This document shows, one piece after another, positions 5,907-38,818 of a stretch of 40,111 bases of DNA. The stretch is from a virus. The notes below the pieces were generated by a model. That model was not told the DNA's origin, made no database searches, and saw nothing but the letters and a program-made list of their open reading frames with translations. Numbering within the stretch: the first letter of the stretch is position 1; each line of letters starts with the position of its first letter. The stretch spans positions 1-40,111 of IMG/VR virus record IMGVR_UViG_3300049479_000244. The stretch is one strand, 5' to 3'. The translations under genes and the position numbers were made by a program.

Positions 5907-6229
5907 ATCCTCATGTTAAACTCATAAACACCATTCACCACACACACCACGTCCCGCAAATTCTTTTGGATAGTACACACAAGTGCATCACCATCCCCGA
6001 GACACACAAAGTCCACAGGGTTCCTGCGCCCCGTGTCGGGTATCTTATATAAAAACTTACCGTCCTCTATCTGCTTCAGTGCCTTTTTCTGGTGTGGTAG
6101 GGGCTTGTTGTTCCACATTTTCACCTCAAGTCCCCAGTTCTTGCATGGGTGGATGGCAAACACCCTCTCCGCAACCCTCGTGTCTAGGTCTGCTTCGGTG
6201 CGTTTAATTTTCTTTGGTAGCGCGTACAT
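5903..6229 (-). CDS. PD-(D/E)XK family nuclease, RecU/resolvase-like
   Basis: A 108-residue protein. The segment WGLEVKMWNNKPLPHQKKAL gives an E-x-K catalytic pair followed by L-P-x-H-Q, the pattern seen in RecU-type Holliday-junction resolvases and related nucleases. The later PVDFVCLGDGDALVC supplies an aspartate-containing strand. The small size is typical of phage resolvases. It overlaps the helicase upstream by 26 bases and the DUF1599 gene by four bases, so it is part of the replication operon. It probably resolves branched replication or recombination intermediates. The alternative is a VRR-NUC-type endonuclease; catalysis is inferred only. Confidence 0.55.
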   Translation of the reverse strand: MYALPKKIKRTEADLDTRVAERVFAIHPCKNWGLEVKMWNNKPLPHQKKALKQIEDGKFLYKIPDTGRRNPVDFVCLGDGDALVCTIQKNLRDVVCVVNGVYEFNMRI

Positions 6230-7370
6230 GCTTCAGGTATTCTGCCGGAATAAAATCTTTCCCCGCCTTAATGTTATCATAGATCGCCTGGTCCCTATCC
6301 CCACCAATAAGGTAAAAATATTTGAGGGGCTTTAAAGCATTGATCCGCTTAATTCTACCACGCATCTGTACCTCGTTCCGCACACTGTACCCCATCGAGG
6401 CGAATATCATCACCGCAAAGGAAGGCAACTCAAATCCGGCACCGACCGATGCCTGAATAATGAAATAACACTCACCATCAGCTTCTGCATCAGCGATAAC
6501 TCGCTCAGGATGCTTTGTTCGGCCGTCCAGTACGAACGTCTGGCGCTCCTTAGATAGTTCGTGTTGAAGCGCGTCAATCGACTCGGTGTAGTGAGCGACC
6601 ACAACGACCTTTCTGTATCCTTTTGATATTTCCTTAATAGCAGTACTCTTTGATAGCTGTTCCAGCCGGTGATCTGCGACAAACTGTGCCATCGGTTCCC
6701 ATTCTTCATTTTGTTCATAATCTGGTTTTTTAAGTTTGATAACCTCGTATGTCTCAGGTGGTAGGTCCACCATGTCGCTCATCAGCGCAACATGTGTGTA
6801 TTTGTTGATGAGCTCCTGCATGTCTTTGCGCCACGTCTTCTTGGGAAACCACGCGGGGCGGGGGAGGAATGGCCGATAGGTGAGCTCAAAGTATCGGTCG
6901 CGGTACTTCTTCCATGTGTCTGGTGGTTTGATGTGCGAGAGGACGAGGAGTGTGTGGATATTCCACGGGCTCGACCTTACGGGCGTGGCGGTGAGGAGTA
7001 ATACGGGGCACTGTGGATAAAGCTGTGTATATGTGTATAACTTCTCCGTGCGTTGGCTCCGCAAGCTCGCCACAAACAATGGGCTCGCCACCATATCCGC
7101 CTCGTCTACCACAATGGCGGTTGGGTTCTTCGGTGGCTCGTACTTCTTGAAGTCCTCGAAGGAGTAGACCGTGGCGTATGGTGCGTCCTTCTTCCAAACA
7201 TCTCTGATTTGTTTAGGACAAAGTACTAGGGCGTTTTTGTCTCTACCTTTTTGCTTAAGCCACAACTTAGCAGTAAAACTTTTTCCAGTGCCGACCTCGA
7301 AACAGAGAATGGCATTGTCGTTCTCACTATTAAGAAACTTAGACTGATGTGGGTGTAACTCTATACTCAT
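6204..7370 (-). CDS. superfamily 2 DNA helicase / ATPase
   Basis: A 388-residue SF2 helicase. Visible motifs: the Q-like LHPHQSKF at the start, motif I (Walker A) EVGTGKS at about residues 25-31, motif II VVDEADM (DEAD-type Walker B) near 90, motif III LLTATPV, a central linker, a second RecA-like domain, and motif VI QMRGRIKRI with the arginine fingers. It is short compared with most SNF2 enzymes and similar to compact phage helicases placed between primase and resolvase. It should unwind or remodel branched DNA in replication or recombination using ATP. It overlaps both neighbours (4 bases upstream, 26 downstream). Confidence 0.9.
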   Translation of the reverse strand: MSIELHPHQSKFLNSENDNAILCFEVGTGKSFTAKLWLKQKGRDKNALVLCPKQIRDVWKKDAPYATVYSFEDFKKYEPPKNPTAIVVDEADMVASPLFVASLRSQRTEKLYTYTQLYPQCPVLLLTATPVRSSPWNIHTLLVLSHIKPPDTWKKYRDRYFELTYRPFLPRPAWFPKKTWRKDMQELINKYTHVALMSDMVDLPPETYEVIKLKKPDYEQNEEWEPMAQFVADHRLEQLSKSTAIKEISKGYRKVVVVAHYTESIDALQHELSKERQTFVLDGRTKHPERVIADAEADGECYFIIQASVGAGFELPSFAVMIFASMGYSVRNEVQMRGRIKRINALKPLKYFYLIGGDRDQAIYDNIKAGKDFIPAEYLKHVRATKEN

Positions 7371-7612
7371 TGTAATTCCTTCAGTCGCATCGTCACAATC
7401 TTATCAAAGAACCAGTCTGGACCACGCAGATCGGCGTCATTCTGCTTCTTCGCCCACTGTAGATACCCAACATCATCAAGCTCATACAGCGAATACCCTT
7501 TATACTTCCCATACGGGAAGACATAATCGTGTGTGTTGAGCCGTCGTTTCTTCCCCTCCTCATTGTAAAGGTGGTCGTCGTCCCCGTCCTTCATATATAC
7601 CCACGGATTCAT
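7367..7612 (-). CDS. DUF3820-like protein
   Basis: An 81-residue protein. The core YVFPYGKYKGYSLYELDD followed by YLQWAKKQ matches the DUF3820 pattern (P-x-G-K-Y-K-G-x-x-L-x-x-x-P/D-x-x-Y-L-x-W), a small domain also found at the C-terminus of exonuclease X-type nucleases. The stand-alone form is common in phages. The molecular function is not established; association with nucleases and replication genes suggests DNA binding. It overlaps genes on both sides by four bases (ATGA). Confidence 0.7.
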   Translation of the reverse strand: MNPWVYMKDGDDDHLYNEEGKKRRLNTHDYVFPYGKYKGYSLYELDDVGYLQWAKKQNDADLRGPDWFFDKIVTMRLKELQ

Positions 7613-8802
7613 AATTCAATGTCTACATTACTAATAACATCAGCATCATACGGATCGACTCTCCGCACCATGTCTACCATATCCTTACGCACGATTTCCC
7701 AACGCTTCTTGCCATTTGCGTCCTCATCAGTGAGGCGGATGATGCCAATTGCCTGTAGCTGATCGAGCTCCTTTCTCACCACCTCAACATGAAGCCCCGT
7801 ACATGACGAGATGTTGCGAGCGGTGAGTTGCTTCCCCTGGTCGTGGAGGCCCACAAGGTTTCTAAGCCACGCCCTCCGCTTGTCGTTACAGAGACTATAC
7901 GCAGTCCACTCAAGGGCACTATTAAGATCCTGCGGTAACGGCTCATCAGGCTCGTCAGACATCACCTGTAGCGCGGTGGCTATCGCCTGTAGTTGTTTCA
8001 TCACACGAAACGGCATCTCTGGCTCCGGAAACTCATCCACAAGCCCACTCCGCTCGTCGGTGTGTACTGGGGTTCGTAACAGTGTGCTGTATTCACTCAT
8101 CGTCTGGATCACCCGCTTCGTTTCTTCGTGGAGTGGTGGTATTACTGGTGGTAACCCTTGGAGTAATTCAGTGAGGTACACGTCGAGGTGATGCGCGATG
8201 TGGTTGGTCGTTTCTTTGGACGGCTTACCGTGGCGCGTGACAAACTCCACCGCCTTATGCGTGTCAAACTTCTTCATCCGGTAGCTGATAAACCGCTCAC
8301 CCATATCCGCCACCTCGTTAAAATACCGATAAATCGATGGGGTAGACCCCGCAATCATGCCAATATACCCCTCCCACACAATCGGCTCCTTGCGATTGCC
8401 GGTGCTTTTCGAGAACCGACCGTCATACATCATGCGGAATTGCGAGAGGATCTCCGCGCGCTGTTCGCTGTTCTTACTAAACAGCACCGTAAGATCATCC
8501 ATTGAGAGCACCCCATGCTTCCCAATACGTCCCAACAGTGAGCCGTCAAGCCCTTGTGTTCCTGATAGAAGCGTGTTTGACGTGAGGTCATCGATTTGGT
8601 GGATGAGTTGCTTGTGCGCGATGGCAAATGGTCGTATAAGTTGGCTCTTGCCACCACTACTTGGACCAATGAGCGTAAGCCATACAGGGTCACCCACCTT
8701 CATGGAGTTTGCGACGATGGAGGCGATCACGATGTCCACCATCCCAAAATCTTCTATATACAAGTATTTTGCTATCTCCTCGTGAAGCTCGGCTCGTGTC
8801 AT
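7609..8802 (-). CDS. AAA+ ATPase with C-terminal winged helix, candidate replicative helicase
   Basis: A 397-residue protein with Walker A GPSSGGKS at residues 46-53 and a Walker B-like GVLSMDDL near 97-104. A following asparagine-containing segment and GERFISYRM near 165-175 could provide sensor and arginine-finger residues. The C-terminal part (LTARNISSCTGLHVEVVRKE, then LDQLQAIGIIRL) is a typical winged helix. The spacing resembles MCM-like and related AAA+ helicases (G-x-x-G-x-x-K-S-Q-L) more than DnaB. Placed directly after the primase with a 4-base overlap, it is the best candidate for the replicative helicase. A helicase loader or regulatory ATPase are alternatives. Confidence 0.6.
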   Translation of the reverse strand: MTRAELHEEIAKYLYIEDFGMVDIVIASIVANSMKVGDPVWLTLIGPSSGGKSQLIRPFAIAHKQLIHQIDDLTSNTLLSGTQGLDGSLLGRIGKHGVLSMDDLTVLFSKNSEQRAEILSQFRMMYDGRFSKSTGNRKEPIVWEGYIGMIAGSTPSIYRYFNEVADMGERFISYRMKKFDTHKAVEFVTRHGKPSKETTNHIAHHLDVYLTELLQGLPPVIPPLHEETKRVIQTMSEYSTLLRTPVHTDERSGLVDEFPEPEMPFRVMKQLQAIATALQVMSDEPDEPLPQDLNSALEWTAYSLCNDKRRAWLRNLVGLHDQGKQLTARNISSCTGLHVEVVRKELDQLQAIGIIRLTDEDANGKKRWEIVRKDMVDMVRRVDPYDADVISNVDIEL

Positions 8803-9740
8803 ACCAGTTTATTTAACTCCGTAATGGCCTCACGAAACGAGCAGTTGTGGAGCTTCCGATACGCGTCAATGCTGTCATACGCCCGTCCACAACCACCAAA
8901 ACAGTACGCGCTATTCGTCTTCGGGTAGTACGCGAGACTACCCGTCCTCTCGTTGTGCCACGGGCACACCGCCTTCTTGTGGGTAAATGCTATCAAGTTG
9001 TCCATCGGATAGCTCCTAGCACGCAACACCTCGTCGGTTCCTGTATACGGATTCGGGCTCGTGGCGCGCTCCGCCCTTTGCCGGTGCTCCTCGATGTACT
9101 TATCGTGGAAGCGGATGGGGAGCTTCAGCGCCTTGCGTCTGTCCCTGTCATCAATCACCGACGTCATATCGGGAAATGCTTGCGCAGTTGCGAGGAGCTG
9201 ATGCAAATCGCCCCCCTGCGCCACATAGTCGCTTATGTCTTTTAGCCCCACATGCTCTGGTACAAGTACAATCTTCGCTTCTGGTAGGTATTTAAGAACG
9301 CGCACCATACCCTCTGCTCCCGCGTCGTCATTGTCAAAGCACACCGCCACCTCACGCCCAGCGAGTAACTCTTTCCACTCCTCCTGAAAGGACATCGCGC
9401 CCCCCGTACTCGTGACTGCGGGGATGTTGTGTGACCATGCGACGAGGCAATCCAATTCACCCTCCGTAATGAGTATGGTGGTGTGTTCGGCTTGTAGTTT
9501 GTCATACCCAAACAGGGTGACCCTACTACCAGAGTCGTATAGGTACTTTGGCTTACGCTCATCAAGCGGGTCCCTGCGGTATTTCGCATGGGTGTCGCTG
9601 ATTGGTATTTTGATGCAATCACCAATATCCGCGCGTGTTGCTGTCTGTATATTAAAAAGAGACATCACCTCGTCGGTAATGCCACGGCGCTTGAGGTAAT
9701 CATAAAAATGAGCATCAAGATTGGGTATATTCGATTGCAT
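8799..9740 (-). CDS. DNA primase with TOPRIM domain first and CHC2-type zinc finger last
   Basis: A 313-residue protein. Residues 60-175 form a TOPRIM domain: LFGYDKL, then ITEGELDCL (Glu93) and VCFDNDDAG (Asp136, Asp138), followed by LKDISDYVAQGG as in DnaG. The C-terminus (255-313) is a CHC2-like zinc finger: Cys259, His262, Cys280, Cys284, with CPWHNERTGSLAYYP and SIDAYRKLHNCSFREAI matching the DnaG zinc domain. In DnaG the zinc finger is N-terminal, so this protein looks permuted. It should synthesise RNA primers for the adjacent AAA+ protein. I choose ATG 9740: a TATACT box ends seven bases upstream. Overlaps the downstream gene by ATGA. Confidence 0.85.
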   Translation of the reverse strand: MQSNIPNLDAHFYDYLKRRGITDEVMSLFNIQTATRADIGDCIKIPISDTHAKYRRDPLDERKPKYLYDSGSRVTLFGYDKLQAEHTTILITEGELDCLVAWSHNIPAVTSTGGAMSFQEEWKELLAGREVAVCFDNDDAGAEGMVRVLKYLPEAKIVLVPEHVGLKDISDYVAQGGDLHQLLATAQAFPDMTSVIDDRDRRKALKLPIRFHDKYIEEHRQRAERATSPNPYTGTDEVLRARSYPMDNLIAFTHKKAVCPWHNERTGSLAYYPKTNSAYCFGGCGRAYDSIDAYRKLHNCSFREAITELNKLV

Positions 9741-9746
9741 GAAAGG

Positions 9747-9755
9747 AGTATACCA
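9747..9755 (-). promoter_or_regulatory. extended -10 promoter of the replication operon
   Basis: The complement reads TGGTATACT inside GTGTATGGTATACTCC. Six bases separate the box from the ATG at 9740, so transcription should begin at the start codon itself, giving a leaderless mRNA. No -35 box is evident. The same TG-G-TATAAT layout recurs before several late genes. Confidence 0.65.
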
Positions 9756-9765
9756 TACACACAAA

Positions 9766-9785
9766 CAGCCACCATGAAGTGGCTG
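9766..9785 (-). terminator. hairpin terminator after the HTH gene
   Basis: On the minus strand CAGCCAC (9785-9779), a 6-base loop and GTGGCTG (9772-9766) form a 7-bp stem followed by TTTGTG. It lies between the HTH gene stop at 9802 and the promoter of the primase, so it isolates the two units. The T-run is weak. Confidence 0.5.
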
Positions 9786-9801
9786 TGGATATTCCTGTTT
9801 C

Positions 9802-19007: not shown

Positions 19008-21341
19008 ATGGAGAAAAAAATCAAGATTGCACTCTGTATGATTGTGAAGCCAACCGATCAGGAAGCGATGGTGCTTGAGCGATGCCTCCTCTCGGTCGCT
19101 GACCACGTTGATAACATCTTTATCACTCAGGCGGGAAAGAAAAAGAATAAAGAGGTGACACGGGTGGCGAAGTCGTTTGACTGTGTTGAATCTTTTTGGG
19201 AATGGAACAATTCGTTTGCCGATGCTCGGAACTATAATTTCTCACAAGTGCCGAAGGAGTATGATTACATCCTGTGGCTTGATGCGGATGATGTGGTTCA
19301 GGGAGCCGACAAGATACGCGCGACGGTACAGGCAAACCAGAATGTGGACGCCTTCTCTTTTTGGTATCTCTATGCGTTCGACGAGTGGGATAATCCGATT
19401 GTCGTGCACCACAAAACGCGCGTCATAAAAAATGATGGATGCGTGACGTGGGTTGGCAATCTCCATGAGGACTTCCACCCGAATCGACAGCTTGAGACAC
19501 GTCATATTGAGGGTATCGAGGTGTGCCACCTCACGAATGAAGATCGATTGGCGAGCGCCAAGATTCGTAATGAAGAGGTTGCCCAAAAGGACATTGATGA
19601 GAAACCAAATGACCCACGTTCATACTGGAATCTCGGGAACTCGCAAAAATCCGTAGGGAAGAACGAGGAAGCCCTTGTTTCACTTCGTAGATTCATTGAA
19701 CTCTCTCTTTCAAACGACGAGAAGTATATAGCGCACCTACGCATCGCAGAATCGCTCTGTTTTCTTGAAAGAAAAAACGAGGCGATTGATGAGTTGCGGT
19801 ATGCGATTGGACTTAAGCCCCTCTACCCCGATGCGTATATTCAGCTCGGGCGTCTGTACTACGACACAGAACAGTACGCGGACGCGATTGAACTCTTAAA
19901 ACAATCACTCAAACTCACTCCACCGTACTACACGATTGTGGTGTATAACCCACGCGACTACGACTTTACTCCGCTCAAGTGGCTGGGGTATGCGTACATG
20001 GCGATCAACCAACCGATGCTCGCGTATGATTGTTTTGCACAACTCCTTAAGATCACACCAAAGGACAAGAACCTGAAGCAGATTGTCGAGAATATGAAAA
20101 CCGTTTCGGAGAAGCATGAAAAGATGCTCACAAAGTATGCTCAAATCAAGAATCTGAAGGGTGATGAACTGAGGAAGGAGCTCGATGCGATACCTGCTGA
20201 GTGGAAATCAGCACCGGAGTTTACTAATCTGCGCAACCTAAACTTCATTAAGACCGAATCCTCAGGAAAAGACATCTCCATTTTGTGTGGGTATACCACC
20301 AGAACATGGAACCCTACCGCTCTCGCCGAGGGAATTGGTGGCTCGGAGGAGGCGGTGATTCACCTCGCGCGGAGGTACGCTGAAGCGGGGTGGAATGTGA
20401 CGGTGTATAATAATTGTGGACATGAGGCACAGATATTTGATGGTGTGACCTACGCACCATTCTGGACGTGGAACTACCGCGACAAGACCGATGTCACCGT
20501 CCTTTGGCGCCATCCAAAGATGCTCGACTATGAGATAAACAGTGGAAAGATCTTTGTTGACCTCCACGATGTCTTAAAAGCTGGTGAGTTTAATGAGAAG
20601 CGTCTTGCGAAAGTCGATAAGATATTCGTGAAGTCGCAATTCCACAGGTCGCTATTCCCCCAGGTACCCGACGATAAGTTTGTTGTTATCCCCAACGGGA
20701 TTGTCAGTGCTGACTTTGGTGGTTCTTTTGAGAAAGACCCGCACTTGCTAGTGAACACATCGTCTCCCGACAGGTCACTCTCTACTCTCGTGCGCTTATT
20801 TAAGCGTGTAAAAGAACAAGTGCCCGAGGCGAAGTGCGAGTGGGCGTATGGCTGGGGTGTTTTTGATGCGGTACACGGCACCAATCCCAAGGTTATGGAG
20901 TGGAAGAAGCACATCATTCAGGGGATGGAGGAGGTGGGGATAGTGAATCGTGGACTTGTCTCTCATGCTGACGTCGCGGACATGTATAAACGAGCACGAA
21001 TCTTTGCGTACCCCACTGAATTTGCGGAAATTGACTGCATCAGTGCGCGCAAAGCACAGGCGGCGGGAGCAATCCCCGTTACCACCGACTTCGCAGCGCT
21101 CAACGAAACGGTACAGTTTGGGTATAAGGTACACTCAAAGAAAACAAAAGATGACTGGAATGGACCATACCAAACAGATTTTGCACTTAATGATACTAAG
21201 GCTGAGGACGAATGGGTGGAGCGCTGTGTGAGTATCTTAAAATACCCTGGACAATGGAACACTGACGAGATGCAACATGAGATGAAGAAGTACGACTGGG
21301 ACTGGGTAGCTGAGACGTGGATTAAGGAATTTACTGCATGA
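19008..21341 (+). CDS. GT2 glycosyltransferase - TPR - GT4-like glycosyltransferase fusion
   Basis: A 777-residue multidomain protein. Residues 1-200 are a GT-A fold GT2 domain: IALCMIVKPTDQ, FADARNYNF and YILWLDADDVV with the DxD metal/sugar-nucleotide motif. Residues about 205-345 contain TPR repeats (DPRSYWNLGNSQKSVGKNEE, YPDAYIQLGRLYYDTEQYAD). Residues about 425-777 are GT-B-like: EGIGGSEEAVIHLARRYAEA, VVIPNGIVSADFG, LVNTSSPDRSLSTLVRLFK and the sugar-binding region FAYPTEFAEIDCISARKAQA with its E-x(7)-E-type motif altered. It probably adds two sugars in sequence to a virion component. It opens the first glycan cassette and overlaps the next gene by ATGA. Confidence 0.88.
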   Translation: MEKKIKIALCMIVKPTDQEAMVLERCLLSVADHVDNIFITQAGKKKNKEVTRVAKSFDCVESFWEWNNSFADARNYNFSQVPKEYDYILWLDADDVVQGADKIRATVQANQNVDAFSFWYLYAFDEWDNPIVVHHKTRVIKNDGCVTWVGNLHEDFHPNRQLETRHIEGIEVCHLTNEDRLASAKIRNEEVAQKDIDEKPNDPRSYWNLGNSQKSVGKNEEALVSLRRFIELSLSNDEKYIAHLRIAESLCFLERKNEAIDELRYAIGLKPLYPDAYIQLGRLYYDTEQYADAIELLKQSLKLTPPYYTIVVYNPRDYDFTPLKWLGYAYMAINQPMLAYDCFAQLLKITPKDKNLKQIVENMKTVSEKHEKMLTKYAQIKNLKGDELRKELDAIPAEWKSAPEFTNLRNLNFIKTESSGKDISILCGYTTRTWNPTALAEGIGGSEEAVIHLARRYAEAGWNVTVYNNCGHEAQIFDGVTYAPFWTWNYRDKTDVTVLWRHPKMLDYEINSGKIFVDLHDVLKAGEFNEKRLAKVDKIFVKSQFHRSLFPQVPDDKFVVIPNGIVSADFGGSFEKDPHLLVNTSSPDRSLSTLVRLFKRVKEQVPEAKCEWAYGWGVFDAVHGTNPKVMEWKKHIIQGMEEVGIVNRGLVSHADVADMYKRARIFAYPTEFAEIDCISARKAQAAGAIPVTTDFAALNETVQFGYKVHSKKTKDDWNGPYQTDFALNDTKAEDEWVERCVSILKYPGQWNTDEMQHEMKKYDWDWVAETWIKEFTA

Positions 21342-22231
21342 GAATCGCCTTTTGCTGGACGAATGGGGTGAGGAATAAAGACCGATTTTTTAGATGGAAC
21401 GACGGATTAAGGAGAGCCATCACACTAATGGAAGCTGAAGGTCATGAGTTGAGTTTCCACGAGCCAGATGAAGACTTACCCACTGTTGATTGGATTTTAT
21501 TCTGGGAGGCGCCGTGTACCCACTCATCTGAGTTGTGGGGAGATGCGTACAAGAAAGTGCAGTATTCCCCACAGAAAAAGGCGCTCCTCTTTGCGGGTGG
21601 TCCGATACAAAAGAATTGGGTGGAAGGATTTGACCACATCTTTGTTGAGTCGCTTATAAATCGTGATGATTTTGACCGGATCGGAGTTAAAAATTCAGTG
21701 GCGTTTGGGGTAAACACTGACATTTTTAGGCCACTTGATACCCCGAAGATATATACCACAGTTACTCATGGAACATGTGCCAGCTGGAAACGTCAGAACC
21801 TTGTTGGTGAGGCTTTTAAAGAACGGGCACTCGTGTTTGGCCAACCGCAGGACACCGATCCAAAGATGTTTGATGACTGTCGGAACTTTGGATGTACTGT
21901 CTTACTTGAGCAGACATACGAGGAAACAAATAGACTACTCAATACCGCTCATGTTGCGGTGAATTGCGCTGATTTCTGGGGCGGTGGGCAGAGGTCGACA
22001 CTTGAGGCGATGGCGTGTAATCTCCCCGTTGTGGTGATGGAAGATTCTCCTAAAAATCGCGAGTATGTGGAGGCGAGCGGTTGTGGGTATGTGTGCAAAC
22101 CAGAGGTAGAAGCAATACGAGAGGCAGTCAACACCGCTGTTGTGGAAAAAAAGTCTGGTGGAAGGGAGTATGTTATGAGAAACTGGACACCAGAACATTA
22201 TAAAAATGCACTATTAAATGTAATTGGATAA
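21338..22231 (+). CDS. GT4-like glycosyltransferase
   Basis: A 297-residue, GT-B-like protein. The N-terminal half begins MRIAFCWTNGVRNKDRFFRW and is divergent. The C-terminal half contains VAFGVNTDIFRPLD, the loop typical of retaining GT4 enzymes (N/G-V-D-x-x-x-F-x-P), and WGGGQRSTLEAMACNLPVVV followed by NREYVEASGCGYV. The conserved Glu of E-A-M-A-C is the nucleotide-sugar binding residue of the family. It overlaps the preceding fusion by four bases and is followed after one base by the FkbM gene, so all act in one pathway, probably decorating a capsid or tail protein. Confidence 0.85.
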   Translation: MRIAFCWTNGVRNKDRFFRWNDGLRRAITLMEAEGHELSFHEPDEDLPTVDWILFWEAPCTHSSELWGDAYKKVQYSPQKKALLFAGGPIQKNWVEGFDHIFVESLINRDDFDRIGVKNSVAFGVNTDIFRPLDTPKIYTTVTHGTCASWKRQNLVGEAFKERALVFGQPQDTDPKMFDDCRNFGCTVLLEQTYEETNRLLNTAHVAVNCADFWGGGQRSTLEAMACNLPVVVMEDSPKNREYVEASGCGYVCKPEVEAIREAVNTAVVEKKSGGREYVMRNWTPEHYKNALLNVIG

Positions 22232-22232
22232 T

Positions 22233-22838
22233 ATGCCAAGCGTAAATGACCATTTTAAGTACACTGTCGAGGAGTGGCAGAGTGATCTATTTAAGAAAAT
22301 TACTGACCCACTCCCCGAAGATATACGGGTGGTGTTTGACGTTGGTGCGAACGTGGGTGGTTGGGCACATGTGATGCAGGGGAAATATGGTAACAATCTT
22401 TCCATCACTTGCTTTGAGCCCGTCAAGGAAAATTTGGAGATGCTTAAATCAAAAGATCTGAATATCACCATTTGTCCATTTGGCATATTCTACGGTGCGC
22501 GCGAGTCACACGTTTGTTCGCGCGGGGATGGTAACTGCGGTGGTGTTTTTGTGGAACAAATAGAGGCTGGTGACCCAATTATCAAATCGGATGAGATTAT
22601 CCAGCTCCGCACATTCGAGGAACTTGAGTTACCCATGCCGAACCTAATAAAGTTTGACGTAGAGGGGGCAGAGGAAAACATACTTGAACACTCGACTCTC
22701 GTAAAAGAAACTCCATGGCTCATCGTAGAGTGGCACCCAGAACATGTGGACTGTTACGAGTTTTTTAAAAAACACCTCCCACAGCATGAGATTGTGGTTG
22801 ACTTGGAGAGTAAGCAGTTTCTTCTTCATAAACAATGA
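22233..22838 (+). CDS. FkbM-family SAM-dependent methyltransferase
   Basis: A 201-residue class I methyltransferase. Motif I is VVFDVGANVGGWAHVM. ITCFEPVKENLEML gives the acidic ribose-binding residue (E). The FkbM signature is LIKFDVEGAEENILEHS followed by WLIVEWHPEH. Such enzymes O-methylate sugars, so it probably caps or modifies the glycan made by the neighbours. I prefer ATG 22233 to the in-frame TTG at 22224, which would lie in the previous stop region. It overlaps the next glycosyltransferase by ATGA. Confidence 0.9.
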   Translation: MPSVNDHFKYTVEEWQSDLFKKITDPLPEDIRVVFDVGANVGGWAHVMQGKYGNNLSITCFEPVKENLEMLKSKDLNITICPFGIFYGARESHVCSRGDGNCGGVFVEQIEAGDPIIKSDEIIQLRTFEELELPMPNLIKFDVEGAEENILEHSTLVKETPWLIVEWHPEHVDCYEFFKKHLPQHEIVVDLESKQFLLHKQ

Positions 22839-23473
22839 TCAGTGTCCTCACCCCCTCAATTCGACCAGAGCACCTCAACATTACCCAAGGGTGCCTTGAA
22901 TCTCAGGCCTTCCAAGATTTTGAGTGGTTGGTGGAAATTGGTAGGCGGAATCAGGGTTTTACACTACCCTCAGACTTGAACAAGATGCTCCGACGCGCGA
23001 AGGGCGATCGTATCGTAATGCTTCAGGATTGTATACACATACTCCCCAACGCACTTGAGAAGATACACGCGCTCCCCAATGAGATGTACACCTTCCCCGT
23101 CGGACAGGTGAGGGCGATAGGAGACACACCCGAGTGGGACTGGCGAGATACATTTACTGGTGAACTCCTCGGTGCGCACTACTGGGAGTCTGACTTCGCG
23201 TGCGCACCAACACAGGCGTTTTTTGACGTCGGTGGGTACGACGAGGACTTTAATAATGGATGGAGTTGGGATAATGTTGAGGTGGCGCGCCGTATTTACA
23301 GGACTGGGCGCAAGGCATACTGTGAGCCAAGTATTCGTGGTATCGCCATTAAACACGACTCGATTAAACCACACCCCTTTCGGAACACCCTCGTAAGCAA
23401 CGCAGATCGCGCAGAAGCGTCTAAATATCGGTGCGAAAGAGGAGAGTACAAGCTCAATTACTTGACTCGGTGA
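22835..23473 (+). CDS. GT2-family glycosyltransferase
   Basis: A 212-residue GT-A fold protein. It starts MISVLTPSIRPEHLNITQGC, the usual beta-strand of GT2, and includes LNKMLRRAKGDRIVMLQDCI, where a Q-D-C replaces the classical D-x-D, and FFDVGGYDEDFNNGWSWDNV with the acceptor-side G-G-x-D-E and W-x-x-x-x D/E motif of galactosyltransferase-like GT2 members. The weak DxD suggests an altered metal site or relaxed activity. It closes the first glycan cassette; its TGA is followed after three bases by the TGGTATAAT promoter of the tail module. Confidence 0.82.
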   Translation: MISVLTPSIRPEHLNITQGCLESQAFQDFEWLVEIGRRNQGFTLPSDLNKMLRRAKGDRIVMLQDCIHILPNALEKIHALPNEMYTFPVGQVRAIGDTPEWDWRDTFTGELLGAHYWESDFACAPTQAFFDVGGYDEDFNNGWSWDNVEVARRIYRTGRKAYCEPSIRGIAIKHDSIKPHPFRNTLVSNADRAEASKYRCERGEYKLNYLTR

Positions 23474-32315: not shown

Positions 32316-33752
32316 ATGCTCACGAGCGTCCTCATCCCCGCACGAAATGAAATATACCTAGAGCAGACTATTCGGAATGTCCTTGCAAACATTCGTGGGG
32401 ACTCGGAAATCCTTATTATGCTTGACGGGTACATACCGGAAACACAAATTGTGACTGGTGATGACAGGGTTCGCTTTTTCCATAACCGTGAAGCTAAAGG
32501 ACAACGTGCGTCTATAAACGAACTCGCGCGACAGGCAAAAGGGAAATTCATTATGAAACTCGACGCGCACTGTGCCGTAGACGAGGGTTTTGATGTGAAA
32601 CTCGCAGAGGACTGTGAGTATGACTGGACGGTGATTCCTCGGATGTACAACCTTGATGTCAAAACCTTCACACCGAAACTCCGCAAACGTACCGACTACA
32701 TGTACATTGGTATGAACGAAAGGGGAGAATTGCGCTCACTCTACTACGGGGGAGAACAGTGGAAGGAAATGCACCGCAGGACGGAACTCATCGACGACAC
32801 GATGGGGTGTATGGGGCCAGGGTGGTTTATGCACAAGGAACGTTTTTGGGAACTCGGGGGCTGTGATGAAACACAAGGAGGTCCCGCAGGGTGGGGACAG
32901 CAGGGCATCGAGGTTGCGTGTAAGGCGTGGCTCTCTGGTGGTAGGCTGGTGGTGAACAAAAAGACATGGTTCGCACACTGGTTCCGCGCAAGTGACGGAG
33001 GGTTCCCGTACCCCATAAAAGAGAGTGACATACAGAAGACACGGGAGTATTCAAAAGACCTGTGGCTCAATAACAAATGGGAGGGACAGAAGCGCAATTT
33101 TCAATGGTTAATAGATAAATTTAATCCCCCTGGCTGGGACACCTATATGAAATATCCAGAGTACGATGAGACATTTGAGCGAATGTATAAACACATTCAC
33201 CGTCAGATGCACTACCCGAAGTATAAGGGACTCCTCATGCAGAAGTTCCCGAACGACATGCAACTATACCACCAAGTCATCTGGGAAAAGAAACCAGACG
33301 TTGTGGTTGAAATTGGGACACGATTCGGCGCGTCAGCACTATTCTTCCAAGACCAGCTCGACTATGTAGGAAACGGCGGGAAGGTTATCACTATCGACAT
33401 CAATCCACAGGTGGTAGAACACGACCCGCGCATCACCTACCTTATTGGGAACTCGAATGATGATGATATTGTTCGTAAAATCCAAGAACTTACAGCAGGT
33501 AAAAGTGTCATGGTTGTTATTGATGGGAACCACTCACGTACCCATGTGAAATGGGAACTCACGAAGTACAAGAACATTGTAACAAGTGGACAGTACATGG
33601 TGGTGGAGGACTGCTACGTTGACCGTGGACTTTACGGACCAGGGGAAGCCCGAGACTGGTTCCTCGCGCACACACGCTCATTTAAGAAAGTTGACCTACA
33701 CAACAACTTCCTCTACGGCATAACAAACGGTGCATGGCTACTAAAGACCTGA
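32316..33752 (+). CDS. GT2/GT27-like glycosyltransferase fused to CmcI-like methyltransferase
   Basis: A 478-residue fusion. Residues 1-245 are a GT-A domain: LTSVLIPARNEIYLEQTIRN, MLDGYI, then KLDAHCAVDEGF with a D-x-H motif (Asp83, His85) instead of DxD, and MGPGWFMHKERFWELGGCDE with G-W-G-Q-Q-G-I-E-V; these features recall polypeptide GalNAc-transferases (GT27). Residues about 293-478 match the cephalosporin-hydroxylase/CmcI methyltransferase family: KYKGLLMQKFPNDMQLYHQV, VVVEIGTRFGAS (SAM motif), VIDGNHSRTHVKWEL. The pair should add a sugar and methylate it. It opens glycan cassette 2 and overlaps the next gene by 19 bases. Confidence 0.85.
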   Translation: MLTSVLIPARNEIYLEQTIRNVLANIRGDSEILIMLDGYIPETQIVTGDDRVRFFHNREAKGQRASINELARQAKGKFIMKLDAHCAVDEGFDVKLAEDCEYDWTVIPRMYNLDVKTFTPKLRKRTDYMYIGMNERGELRSLYYGGEQWKEMHRRTELIDDTMGCMGPGWFMHKERFWELGGCDETQGGPAGWGQQGIEVACKAWLSGGRLVVNKKTWFAHWFRASDGGFPYPIKESDIQKTREYSKDLWLNNKWEGQKRNFQWLIDKFNPPGWDTYMKYPEYDETFERMYKHIHRQMHYPKYKGLLMQKFPNDMQLYHQVIWEKKPDVVVEIGTRFGASALFFQDQLDYVGNGGKVITIDINPQVVEHDPRITYLIGNSNDDDIVRKIQELTAGKSVMVVIDGNHSRTHVKWELTKYKNIVTSGQYMVVEDCYVDRGLYGPGEARDWFLAHTRSFKKVDLHNNFLYGITNGAWLLKT

Positions 33753-34516
33753 GCATTATTATTCCCTCGTGGAAAGACCCGTACCTGAACAACACCATTC
33801 AGTCCATCCTTGATAATTTTGAAACAGACTTTGAAATCATACCCGTTCTTGACGGTTACAGACAGGACGTTATCGACCATTCCCGTGTAAAACCACTGTA
33901 CCTAGAGAAGAACGGTGGTATGCGGAACGCCATCAATCAGGGCGTGAAGCGAGCTGAGGGTACATACCTTATGCGTACAGATGAGCACTGTATGTTTGCT
34001 AAGGGGTTTGACAAAACGATACTCCGAACCATACAACCGAACTGGATAGTTGACGCGAAACGATACTTCCTCGACCCCGTGAAGTGGGAGGTGATGGACG
34101 TGCCCCCCGTGATTATGGAACGGCTCGTTATCTCCAAAAACCACAACAAGTTCTCTGCCTTAGTGTGGCGAGAGGCAGACAACAACATCCCCATTAAACC
34201 CAAACAGGCGATGCAGGGTTCGTGCTGGGTGATGCCCCACGCATGGTGGGACAGTGTGATAGGTGAACTCCAAGAAGATGGGTACGGAAAACTGTACCAA
34301 GACTCTACCGAGATGACTATGAAGACATGGAGAGCGGGAGGGGAACTGATGAGCAACCAAGAGACATGGTACGCGCACAAACATCGCTCATTTTCTCGTA
34401 CACACAATCACTCAAACAAAGAGGCGCGGAAGTCATGGGATTATGCACTCGCACAGTGGGGTGACTATTACAAGTACGAACTGTTACCGAGATGGCAAAT
34501 ACGATACTCTACCTAG
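33734..34516 (+). CDS. GT2/GT27-like glycosyltransferase
   Basis: A 260-residue GT-A enzyme paralogous to the first domain of its neighbour: LSIIIPSWKDPYLNNTIQS, IIPVLDGY, NGGMRNAINQGVKRAEGTYL and then MRTDEHCMF, with Asp83 and His85 at the same residue numbers as in the fusion protein. The C-terminal half has QGSCWVMPHAWWDSVIGELQ and TEMTMKTWRAGGELMSNQE, the acceptor-side pattern (G-x-x-x-x-M-x-x-x-x-W, E-x-x-x-K-x-W-x-x-G-G). It probably transfers a second sugar or acts on another site. It overlaps genes on both sides (19 and 25 bases), suggesting coupled translation. Confidence 0.82.
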   Translation: MATKDLSIIIPSWKDPYLNNTIQSILDNFETDFEIIPVLDGYRQDVIDHSRVKPLYLEKNGGMRNAINQGVKRAEGTYLMRTDEHCMFAKGFDKTILRTIQPNWIVDAKRYFLDPVKWEVMDVPPVIMERLVISKNHNKFSALVWREADNNIPIKPKQAMQGSCWVMPHAWWDSVIGELQEDGYGKLYQDSTEMTMKTWRAGGELMSNQETWYAHKHRSFSRTHNHSNKEARKSWDYALAQWGDYYKYELLPRWQIRYST

Positions 34517-35172
34517 GAACACCGAACCTTGACCCACTCATAAAACAGGTGTGCTTTTCTCTGTTGGAGAAGATGGACAAGCCCATTGTGCGTATGGAAC
34601 AGCCCCCTGAGTGGGAACTGTCGGGACTCTCGATGTATAAACAGATTAAAAAGGGGCTGGAACAGGTACACACTAAATGGGTAGCGATTGCGGAACATGA
34701 CTGCCTTTACACCGGGGAACACTTCGACTTTACTCCCCCTGATGACCGCTACTTTTGGTATAACCTGAATAATTGGTTGGTACAGTACAAGAACCCAAAA
34801 CACCCAGAATATGATGGTATGTACTCGTATGTTCCGAATCGGCGTGTGCAGTCACAACTTATCTGTCGTGCTGACATGCTCCGTGAAGTAACGGAAGCGC
34901 AGATACGCGTGGTCGAGCGTCCAGACTGGTTCCGTGATAATAAACTCATTGGGGAACCCGGAACCATTGGTATAAAAGCCCTCAGAATGACTACAGGCGA
35001 CACCCACCAGTGGATTAAAGACTACTTGATAGGGTATCAGGCACGAGACTTCCGCACTGAAATACCGAACGTGGACATCCGTCACGACACGAACCTAACG
35101 GGGCCAAGGAGGGGAACAAACAGGACATTTGAATTATCCACATGGGGTAGGTTCGACCTAAAAATGGTATAA
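34492..35172 (+). CDS. putative glycosyltransferase-like protein
   Basis: A 226-residue protein. TILYLGTPNLDPLIKQVCF resembles a GT-A opening strand and loop, and KGLEQVHTKWVAIAEHDCLY places an E-H-D-C motif where a GT2 enzyme has its D-x-D. The middle is Trp/Tyr/Phe-rich (FDFTPPDDRYFWYNLNNWLV), and the C-terminus has VERPDWFRDNKLIGEPGTIG. I cannot match a family with certainty, but the location at the end of a glycosyltransferase run and the motif support a third enzyme of the pathway. Its stop TAA lies inside the TATAAT of the next promoter. Confidence 0.6.
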   Translation: MANTILYLGTPNLDPLIKQVCFSLLEKMDKPIVRMEQPPEWELSGLSMYKQIKKGLEQVHTKWVAIAEHDCLYTGEHFDFTPPDDRYFWYNLNNWLVQYKNPKHPEYDGMYSYVPNRRVQSQLICRADMLREVTEAQIRVVERPDWFRDNKLIGEPGTIGIKALRMTTGDTHQWIKDYLIGYQARDFRTEIPNVDIRHDTNLTGPRRGTNRTFELSTWGRFDLKMV

Positions 35173-36208: not shown

Positions 36209-37750
36209 ATGACGAGAGAGGTTACCAGAGGACTCACTGGTTGGATAAAGTTCCTTGAGGGGACGGGGACTAGTCTTATTGATGTCAAACAGGGATTAAT
36301 CTCAACCGCCACAGGTGGGCCGACATGGAGACAGGGGCATATAAACACCTACTCCATGAACTTTGACGGAGTCGATGATTACGTCACCCTTAACGCATCC
36401 CTAAAAGTAGGGCAGATTTTTGCCTACTCTTTCTGGTTCAAAAGAGATGCAGAGAACGCCGCATACCCGCTATTCATGGGTTCTGACCTGTTTGCAGGAG
36501 TGACGGGAAGTGGCGGTGCGAGTGTTTACCAGACTGGTACTGGAAACACACTACGTTTTGAAATCTTAAACAGCAACACGACTCGTCAATCAATCACGGC
36601 CTCGGCTGGCGCATGGGGCGACCTCTCAGGCAACAAGCAGTGGAATCATTGTGTCGCTCAGTCAGATGGACGCTACATTTCACTCTTTCTCAACGGACGG
36701 CTCGTCGGACGAGCACTCAAAACCGTCACAATTGCCTGGAATAGTGCGGGTATGTATCTCGCCAAACAGAATCCGTCGACTCCAGGAGGAAGTGCTGGCG
36801 CATGGTATGACGGTCTAATCGACGATGTTCGTGTTTACAACCGAGCCCTTGATGAATCGGAGATACGCGCTCTGGCGTTGATGATGCCGTATCGGGTACC
36901 ACGATGGATGGATGTGGCGGGTGCGGGTGGTTCACCGTCGTCTTCTCCAAGCACATCCCCCTCAACGTCCCCCTCTGCAAGTCCTTCAACTTCACCGTCC
37001 TCTAGCCCTTCTGCCACACCAAGTGCATCCCCAAGCACTTCCCCCTCTACTTCACCCAGTGCGAGTCCGTCAGCTACTCCTTCCCCATCGGCTTCCCCCT
37101 CAACCTCACCCTCAACCAGTCCGTCCTCCTCACCATCAGCCACACCGAGTCCTTCAGCGTCGCCATCCACTTCGCCTTCAACAAGCCCCTCCGCGTCACC
37201 ATCTGCAACCCCTAGCCCATCTGCTAGCCCCTCTACGTCACCAAGTTCAAGCCCCTCTGCGACACCATCAGGCGGTGGTTCTTCCCCGTCGTCCTCACCG
37301 TCAGCAACACCTTCTCCGAGTGCTAGCCCCTCTACAAGTCCTTCAACCTCTCCTTCAGCGAGTCCCAGTGCAACACCATCGCCCTCAGCAAGTCCATCCA
37401 CCTCACCGTCAACGAGTCCAAGTTCGAGTCCGAGTGCTACACCGTCACCTTCCGCAAGTCCAAGCTCATCCCCAAGCACTTCACCATCAACGAGTCCATC
37501 ATCTAGCCCCTCAAGTAGTCCAAGCCCCTCACCATCCCCCTCACCATCGGGCGCACCCGACTACTCACTCAACCCCAATATCTTTCTTCAGATGGGGCAA
37601 CTCTCGTACCAGACGACAGGACTCACCATGCCCGCATGGAATACGGCAAGCCGTCCCGTAGGTCGACTCGGGGAGTGTGGTTTGAACACCGATACAAGTA
37701 AATTAGAAGTGTATAACGGCTCCTCGTGGGTCAGCGTATTATTAACATGA
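36209..37750 (+). CDS. LamG-domain adhesin with long Ser/Pro/Thr repeat
   Basis: A 513-residue protein. Residues about 1-225 form a LamG/concanavalin jelly roll: INTYSMNFDGVDDYVTLNAS, FAYSFWFKRDAENAAYPLFM, WNHCVAQSDGRYISLFLNGR and GLIDDVRVYNRALDESEIRA, the classical family end. Residues about 242-447 are S-P-x-(S/T) repeats of Ser, Pro, Thr and Ala with one GGGSS break, like a mucin or cell-wall stalk. The last 65 residues (DYSLNPNIFLQMGQLSYQTT, LEVYNGSSWVSVLLT) form a small beta domain seen at fibre tips. Probably the receptor-binding tail protein, the stalk being a good O-glycosylation target. It overlaps the next gene by ATGA. Confidence 0.85.
   Translation: MTREVTRGLTGWIKFLEGTGTSLIDVKQGLISTATGGPTWRQGHINTYSMNFDGVDDYVTLNASLKVGQIFAYSFWFKRDAENAAYPLFMGSDLFAGVTGSGGASVYQTGTGNTLRFEILNSNTTRQSITASAGAWGDLSGNKQWNHCVAQSDGRYISLFLNGRLVGRALKTVTIAWNSAGMYLAKQNPSTPGGSAGAWYDGLIDDVRVYNRALDESEIRALALMMPYRVPRWMDVAGAGGSPSSSPSTSPSTSPSASPSTSPSSSPSATPSASPSTSPSTSPSASPSATPSPSASPSTSPSTSPSSSPSATPSPSASPSTSPSTSPSASPSATPSPSASPSTSPSSSPSATPSGGGSSPSSSPSATPSPSASPSTSPSTSPSASPSATPSPSASPSTSPSTSPSSSPSATPSPSASPSSSPSTSPSTSPSSSPSSSPSPSPSPSPSGAPDYSLNPNIFLQMGQLSYQTTGLTMPAWNTASRPVGRLGECGLNTDTSKLEVYNGSSWVSVLLT
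36932..37549 (+). repeat. Ser-Pro-x repeat region encoded by scrambled codons
   Basis: About 206 codons of S-P-(S/T/A)-S type repeats. Ser is written with TCA, TCC, TCT, TCG, AGT and AGC in changing order; Pro with CCA, CCC, CCG and CCT. So the protein repeats exactly while the DNA does not. One GGGSS interruption lies near 37270-37285. The shadow frames are open along the full length but are artefacts of this composition. Confidence 0.9.
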
Positions 37751-37987: not shown

Positions 37988-38818
37988 ATGAAACAGTACG
38001 GAACAGGCGCAGAAGAATCTCCATACGACATTAGGACGTTTACCTATGTCCCCTCCCCACAACCGAAGCTGGGGGGTAAACGGTACTCTAAAAAGGACAT
38101 AGAGGATCAACATAAGGTTGGTATCTGCACCGCAATAGCAACAACACAAAACGCCCGCAAGGCGCTCGGCATTAAGTTCAGCGCTGATTTTCAATACCTG
38201 CTACAAAAGAAACTCCAGGGGAATTGGGACGAAGGATCTTCCCTTTCATGGGCGCTCAAGATAGCTAAAAACGTTGGGTTTCTTCCTGAAAAAGAATGGA
38301 CATTTACCACCGAGCAAGACCGGAAACTTCCGTATATAAAATACATTAAGAAGCTACAAGCCGTCTCTGACGCTGACATTGAGAAGCTAAAAAAGAGGGC
38401 GGAGAAGTACAAGATACTTGCCTACGCAAAAGTGCCAGTAGACCGTGACCTTATGGCGCAGGCAATCAACGAAAGTGACGCGGGGATTCTCACTCGGTAC
38501 GCTATTGGACGCGAGTGGTGGACAAAGCCGATAGAGCCACTTCGTCCTCCAAAGGAGGTTATAAGTGGTCACGCGGTAACCGACAGCAACTACGACGGCG
38601 ACTCGTTCCGCATCGCAAACACATGGGGGACAGACTGGGCTGACTGGGGTACGGCGCACAGGTTACATGACACCTACAAGCCCACGGAGGCGTGGATTGT
38701 TCACTACAACAAGGTTCCTGAAACAATCCAGAGACAAATTGACTCACGCGAAGCTGTCTTGGGTAAAATCCTCGATGGTTTGCAGGAGATTATTAAATTG
38801 TATCAAAAACTAAAATGA
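37988..38818 (+). CDS. papain-like (C1 family) cysteine peptidase
   Basis: A 276-residue protease. The catalytic set is visible: Gln41 and Cys47 (DQHKVGICTAIA, six residues apart as in papain), His195 (VISGHAVTDSNYDGDS) and Asn211 (FRIANTWGTDWADWG, with the N-x-W pair of the family). No signal peptide is seen. Placed between two small membrane proteins in what looks like the lysis cassette, it may be an unusual lysin cutting a peptide or protein in the envelope, or act in virion maturation or penetration. The C-terminal helix (ILDGLQEIIKLYQKLK) could bind a partner. It overlaps the holin-like gene by ATGA. Confidence 0.85.
   Translation: MKQYGTGAEESPYDIRTFTYVPSPQPKLGGKRYSKKDIEDQHKVGICTAIATTQNARKALGIKFSADFQYLLQKKLQGNWDEGSSLSWALKIAKNVGFLPEKEWTFTTEQDRKLPYIKYIKKLQAVSDADIEKLKKRAEKYKILAYAKVPVDRDLMAQAINESDAGILTRYAIGREWWTKPIEPLRPPKEVISGHAVTDSNYDGDSFRIANTWGTDWADWGTAHRLHDTYKPTEAWIVHYNKVPETIQRQIDSREAVLGKILDGLQEIIKLYQKLK

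Follow-up and report, generated by a model that had tools for sequence, protein, structure and literature searches.

A phage primase with a DnaG-type zinc domain behind its TOPRIM core, encoded beside an MCM-like ATPase

The zinc domain of primases is described as N-terminal in reviews and structures. In DnaG, it is followed by a TOPRIM core and a helicase-binding domain, and a related core is found in single-chain primase-helicases such as T7 gp4, Twinkle and four proteins from Patescibacteria and others (L093, L099, L106, L110), these last four consisting of an N-terminal zinc domain, the core and an ATPase in one chain. The helicase of T7 is RecA-like. TOPRIM domains themselves also occur in nucleases and topoisomerases, and action in trans between DnaG subunits is reportedly the topic of Corn et al. 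2005. Among primases of the archaeo-eukaryotic (AEP) fold, human PrimPol has its zinc finger at the C-terminus.

Stand-alone primase zinc ribbons are known in phages (PMC7824862). In the T4 primosome, both the primase core and the zinc domain are mobile and the linker stretches during synthesis; a part in restricting primer length has been suggested for this linker, although changes to it had a small effect only (PMC10359460). Among AEP primases, PrimQH proteins consist of a primase, a zinc or PriCT domain, a helicase (MCM-like in some cases) and a winged helix (PMC5862659), and the primase activity of human PrimPol needs its zinc finger (PMC4027207). Moreover, SCCmec elements pair an MCM-like 3'-5' helicase with an unusual primase (PMC7581432).

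The locus described here lies in a window of 40,111 nt, i.e., the whole stretch of viral DNA that was analysed (IMG/VR record IMGVR_UViG_3300049479_000244, positions 1-40,111). Its primase gene occupies 8799-9740 on the minus strand, with an ATG at 9740, a stop codon at 8799-8801 and a product of 313 aa. An initial annotation, made from the sequence alone, had described this protein as a primase with its domains in reverse order, and its coordinates, frame and zinc-ligand residues (Cys259, His262, Cys280 and Cys284) were all correct. Both halves scored above their Pfam cut-offs: Toprim_2 matched residues 91-172 (E 1.2e-10, 42 bits, cut-off 22.1), and Zn_ribbon_DnaG/CHC2 (PF01807) matched residues 256-311 (E 1.5e-9, 38 bits, cut-off 24.9). 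The C-terminal finger, previously called CHC2-like, matched PF01807 and the PDB zinc domains 1d0q and 2au3 and no other zinc family; with the primase family profile, the B. stearothermophilus domain 1d0q was recovered at E 8.4e-10. Positions 7-184 of the same profile align with residues 154-347 of Aquifex DnaG, which form the polymerase core, and positions 253-309 align with the zinc domain of that very protein, so the order is swapped. Since the primase starts where the polymerase core of DnaG starts, the whole zinc domain is missing from its N-terminus. The protein starts with a complete DnaG/T7-type core and closes with a zinc domain that is genuinely of the DnaG CHC2 type.

On the DNA, the RNA-polymerase core with its TOPRIM fold (residues 10-184; 9189-9713, minus strand) was delimited by alignment with Aquifex DnaG and T7 gp4 together with the Toprim_2 match. 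It is joined to the zinc domain (residues 238-312; 8805-9029, minus strand) by a linker (residues 220-237; 9030-9083, minus strand), within which residues 222-233 fall below a pLDDT of 50. The AlphaFold2 model has a pLDDT of 87.7 with this weak stretch between the domains, and its pTM of 0.67 leaves the relative placing of core and zinc domain unfixed.

Like DnaG, the window primase possesses a TOPRIM core with the catalytic Glu and DxD and a CHC2 zinc domain, but the core comes first, the chain ends with the zinc domain, there is no helicase-binding domain, and the neighbouring ATPase is MCM-like rather than DnaB. In contrast to T7 gp4 and the other single-chain primase-helicases, in which the helicase belongs to the primase chain, the phage divides these parts between two adjoining genes, the first for core and CHC2 domain and the second for the ATPase. 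The stand-alone zinc ribbons of phages, for example that of Mycobacterium phage Priamo (genes 63/62, L007), are the same zinc module kept apart from the TOPRIM core (PMC7824862), whereas the zinc domain of the window primase is fused behind it. Finally, the order of modules in PrimQH resembles that of the window pair, but the AEP fold is unrelated to TOPRIM and the likeness is a parallel, not homology; human PrimPol differs in the same way, having an AEP fold and a UL52-like finger.

When viral and genome contigs were scanned and domains mapped by profile HMMs, the core-then-zinc order was recovered in 54 open frames representing 32 distinct proteins. Twenty-five of these are of the phage type, comprising the window primase and 24 further proteins from uncultivated phage contigs, six are acidobacterial, and the last (L325:3167-4129) comes from another viral contig, of 91 kb, and has a divergent core and C-x3-C spacing. 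Relatives with this order thus exist among phage primases, and searches of the open-access literature gave no account of a TOPRIM primase whose CHC2 domain is C-terminal; the swapped order may be undescribed so far. The catalytic residues E93, D136, D138 and D168, as well as D97 and all four zinc ligands, are the same in 32/32 proteins. In the N-terminal subdomain of the polymerase core, which is present by alignment with Aquifex DnaG and T7 gp4 and carries basic residues, K65 is invariant and positions 53 and 56 are K or R throughout. The initial annotation had also drawn attention to the C-x3-C spacing of the last two ligands. This spacing is real in the window primase, but it does not define the group: it occurs in 15 of the 25 phage members, while the other 10 and all six acidobacterial proteins have C-x2-C, so the extra residue is no family trait.

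Among the best 50 matches of a BFVD fold search, as judged by aligned length and description, none was evidently a full-length relative with this domain order. Two candidates were set aside. Cyanophage PSS2 seemed to provide a full-length match, and its domain order turned out to be normal. MW202577.1 encodes a CHC2 protein whose zinc domain comes last, but its N-terminal part is something other than TOPRIM, and the record gave no Toprim_2 match.

The acidobacterial group (L089:2003-2947, L091:5669-6631, L090, L092 and L232-L234) has the same TOPRIM-then-zinc order. In L089 and L091, the swapped primase is followed by a gene for a different ATPase, and serine-recombinase-like genes were seen by eye on both of the acidobacterial contigs read. 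All four acidobacterial genomes checked (G001-G004) contain a second zinc-domain gene whose open frame, at 592-622 aa, is as long as that of an ordinary DnaG. In one acidobacterial genome (L235:1444-2449), the TOPRIM and zinc parts lie in two overlapping frames, representing either a split gene or a frameshift. A scan of viral contigs with an acidobacterial swapped protein gave no matches.

The start of the window primase gene agrees with the intact leaderless promoter previously proposed for it. A TATACT box (9747-9752, minus strand), read directly, ends 6 nt before the ATG, and a terminator-like hairpin found by pattern scan lies immediately 5' of this promoter (9765-9786, minus strand). The position of the -10 box is conserved among relatives: TATAAT with at most one mismatch occurs 6-7 nt before the ATG in 20 of the 25 phage members, as compared to 41 of 1689 control ATGs (2.4%), a somewhat flattering contrast in that members chose among candidate ATGs and at slightly wider distances than controls. 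A generic sigma-70 scan, which requires a -35 box, listed no promoter before the gene. From the sequence, a leaderless start and a transcription unit of its own are well-supported predictions for this gene.

Downstream, and overlapping the end of the primase gene, lies a gene (7609-8802, minus strand) for a 397-aa AAA+ ATPase with a C-terminal winged helix. Every phage member that is not truncated by the end of its contig has a homologue of this gene directly or closely downstream of the primase; none was found beside the acidobacterial swapped primases. The ATPase was modelled with pLDDT 89 and pTM 0.89, and all of the best 50 PDB matches to the model by Foldseek were MCM chains (best E 9.9e-8, TMq about 0.4-0.5), the PDB being heavily populated with such chains. 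Winged-helix profiles match its C-terminal part. For 15 ATPase members, 25 of 40 families were listed, none of them MCM, and no MCM profile was listed for the window's own ATPase either (Pfam, E up to 10 in both cases); the model lacks the N-terminal DNA-binding tier of MCM, its core starting near residue 40 with helices only before it. Because neither sequence profile nor tier was seen, the protein is called MCM-like in predicted fold and not an MCM. It is also homologous to the ATPase half of the primase-ATPase chains L093, L099, L106 and L110 (E 7e-15 to 2e-19), and from its modelled fold and its conserved place beside the primase it is the probable helicase partner. The unit of interest is larger than the primase alone, i.e., a conserved pair of swapped primase and MCM-like ATPase. 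The ATPases of the window and of L327 gave no tblastn match in annotated phage records, so this phage group seems to be unrepresented there.

A SNF2/DEAD-type helicase gene (6204-7370, minus strand; Pfam Helicase_C, E 1.8e-7) belongs to the same cluster. Elsewhere in the window, several glycosyltransferase- and methyltransferase-like proteins are apparent by eye from the translations amid phage structural genes (19008-23473 and 32316-35172), a predicted protein at 36209-37750 has a long Ser-Pro-rich repeat run (SPSTSPSASPS), and a papain-type cysteine protease-like protein, also recognised by eye, lies where the structural gene region ends (37988-38818).

Free zinc domains were found in comparable settings. 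In L277 (3656-5447) and L327 (3467-5421), a free zinc-domain gene of 186-234 aa lies directly upstream of an ATPase gene of the same family, with a SNF2-like helicase gene near the pair in both; in L279, the two genes share a region without being adjacent. No Toprim_2 match was found in these records, which may be fragments. Zinc genes upstream of a TOPRIM gene occur in L007 and L022. A further layout, found at L299:2539-4234 and also in L305 and L317, has a TOPRIM primase-helicase gene and a separate small zinc-domain gene downstream, the two genes overlapping in L299 and L317; this layout is one step away from the fused order.

In a tree of the core, the 15 phage rows group together (100/98), the four acidobacterial rows make up a second clade (100/99), and a single common clade of all swapped rows was not rejected (p 0.172). 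In a tree of the zinc domain, which was built from few columns and whose bootstrap had not settled, the free proteins L277 and L278 fall into one clade with most of the phage domains (99/97), within which fused L172 and free L277 are sisters (100/97); L021 falls weakly with other free zinc-domain proteins, and the acidobacterial domains form a clade of their own (100/99). Here too, a single origin was not rejected by the AU test (p 0.247; L277 and L278 uncounted, long rows dropped), though in each tree the acidobacterial group branches separately from the phage group.

We consider it likely that the protein is an RNA primase with its zinc domain on a flexible C-terminal tether, that it is paired with the ATPase, and that it was born by fusion to a free zinc-domain gene. 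Most likely, a free zinc-domain gene that already adjoined the ATPase gene received a TOPRIM core at its upstream end; this direction is the one we infer, and the free domains of L277 and L327 could instead be fused proteins that lost their TOPRIM. The best-surviving alternative, though an unlikely one, is circular permutation or relocation, in which the zinc domain once present at the N-terminus of the primase itself was shifted to the other end with function unchanged. The break falls exactly at the border between zinc domain and core, and the single origin left standing for all swapped proteins would suit such an event. Against it, the phage C-terminal domain groups with free zinc-domain proteins, and the nearest core relatives having an N-terminal zinc domain (L094, L097, L107, L122) carry, as judged by eye, a C4-like domain and not CHC2.

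It is less probable still that the protein makes no primers, and that it or its zinc domain recruits a host DnaG core or regulates the ATPase. Related phages that encode the zinc domain and the ATPase but lack any detectable TOPRIM would fit such a role, but the invariance of the catalytic residues throughout the swapped group points to kept catalysis. A TOPRIM nuclease or other TOPRIM enzyme bearing a zinc tail, with no primase function, is very improbable: such enzymes share the domain, and the Foldseek search with the primase model returned weak matches to RNase M5 and gyrase as well as to DnaG and T7 gp4, but the best matches are all primases and the N-terminal core subdomain is primase-specific. 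Finally, although a single metagenomic contig might be chimeric, a chimeric assembly, frameshift or wrong start is hardly credible given 32 distinct proteins on many independent contigs with the same order and residues and a conserved start context and promoter, in keeping with the initial annotation's view that the order comes from neither frameshift nor fragment.

If the protein is indeed an RNA primase born by fusion, the zinc domain would read the template while tethered flexibly behind the catalytic core. From homology, it would find the start triplet and hold the 5' end of the primer, and meanwhile the TOPRIM core would join ribonucleotides; primer synthesis by this protein is a prediction. 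Because the domains are loosely linked modules, the zinc domain could be used at either end, and it may act in cis on its own core or in trans on a neighbour's. The MCM-like AAA+ ATPase from the adjoining gene would be the replicative helicase partner. A more tentative proposal, somewhat short of an even chance, is a distinct two-gene primosome: the TOPRIM primase would have its zinc domain towards the helicase, and an MCM-like AAA+ protein, presumably of 3'-5' polarity, would replace the DnaB/T7-type ring. Its order of modules would be as in PrimQH, and TOPRIM would have been added to an older zinc/ATPase pair able to work without a TOPRIM of its own.

The swapped order is a rearrangement of known modules in which the known working residues have all been kept, and it is apparently undescribed in the open-access literature. 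A family with its zinc domain at the other end, together with sister phages in which that domain is free, provides a natural test of tether position, and the same set of phages would test cis against trans action of the zinc domain and the way in which a TOPRIM primase cooperates with a partner of MCM-like fold. That pairing, if shown, would add interest, and the conservation of swapped primase and MCM-like ATPase as a pair suggests a variant way to build a replication machine.
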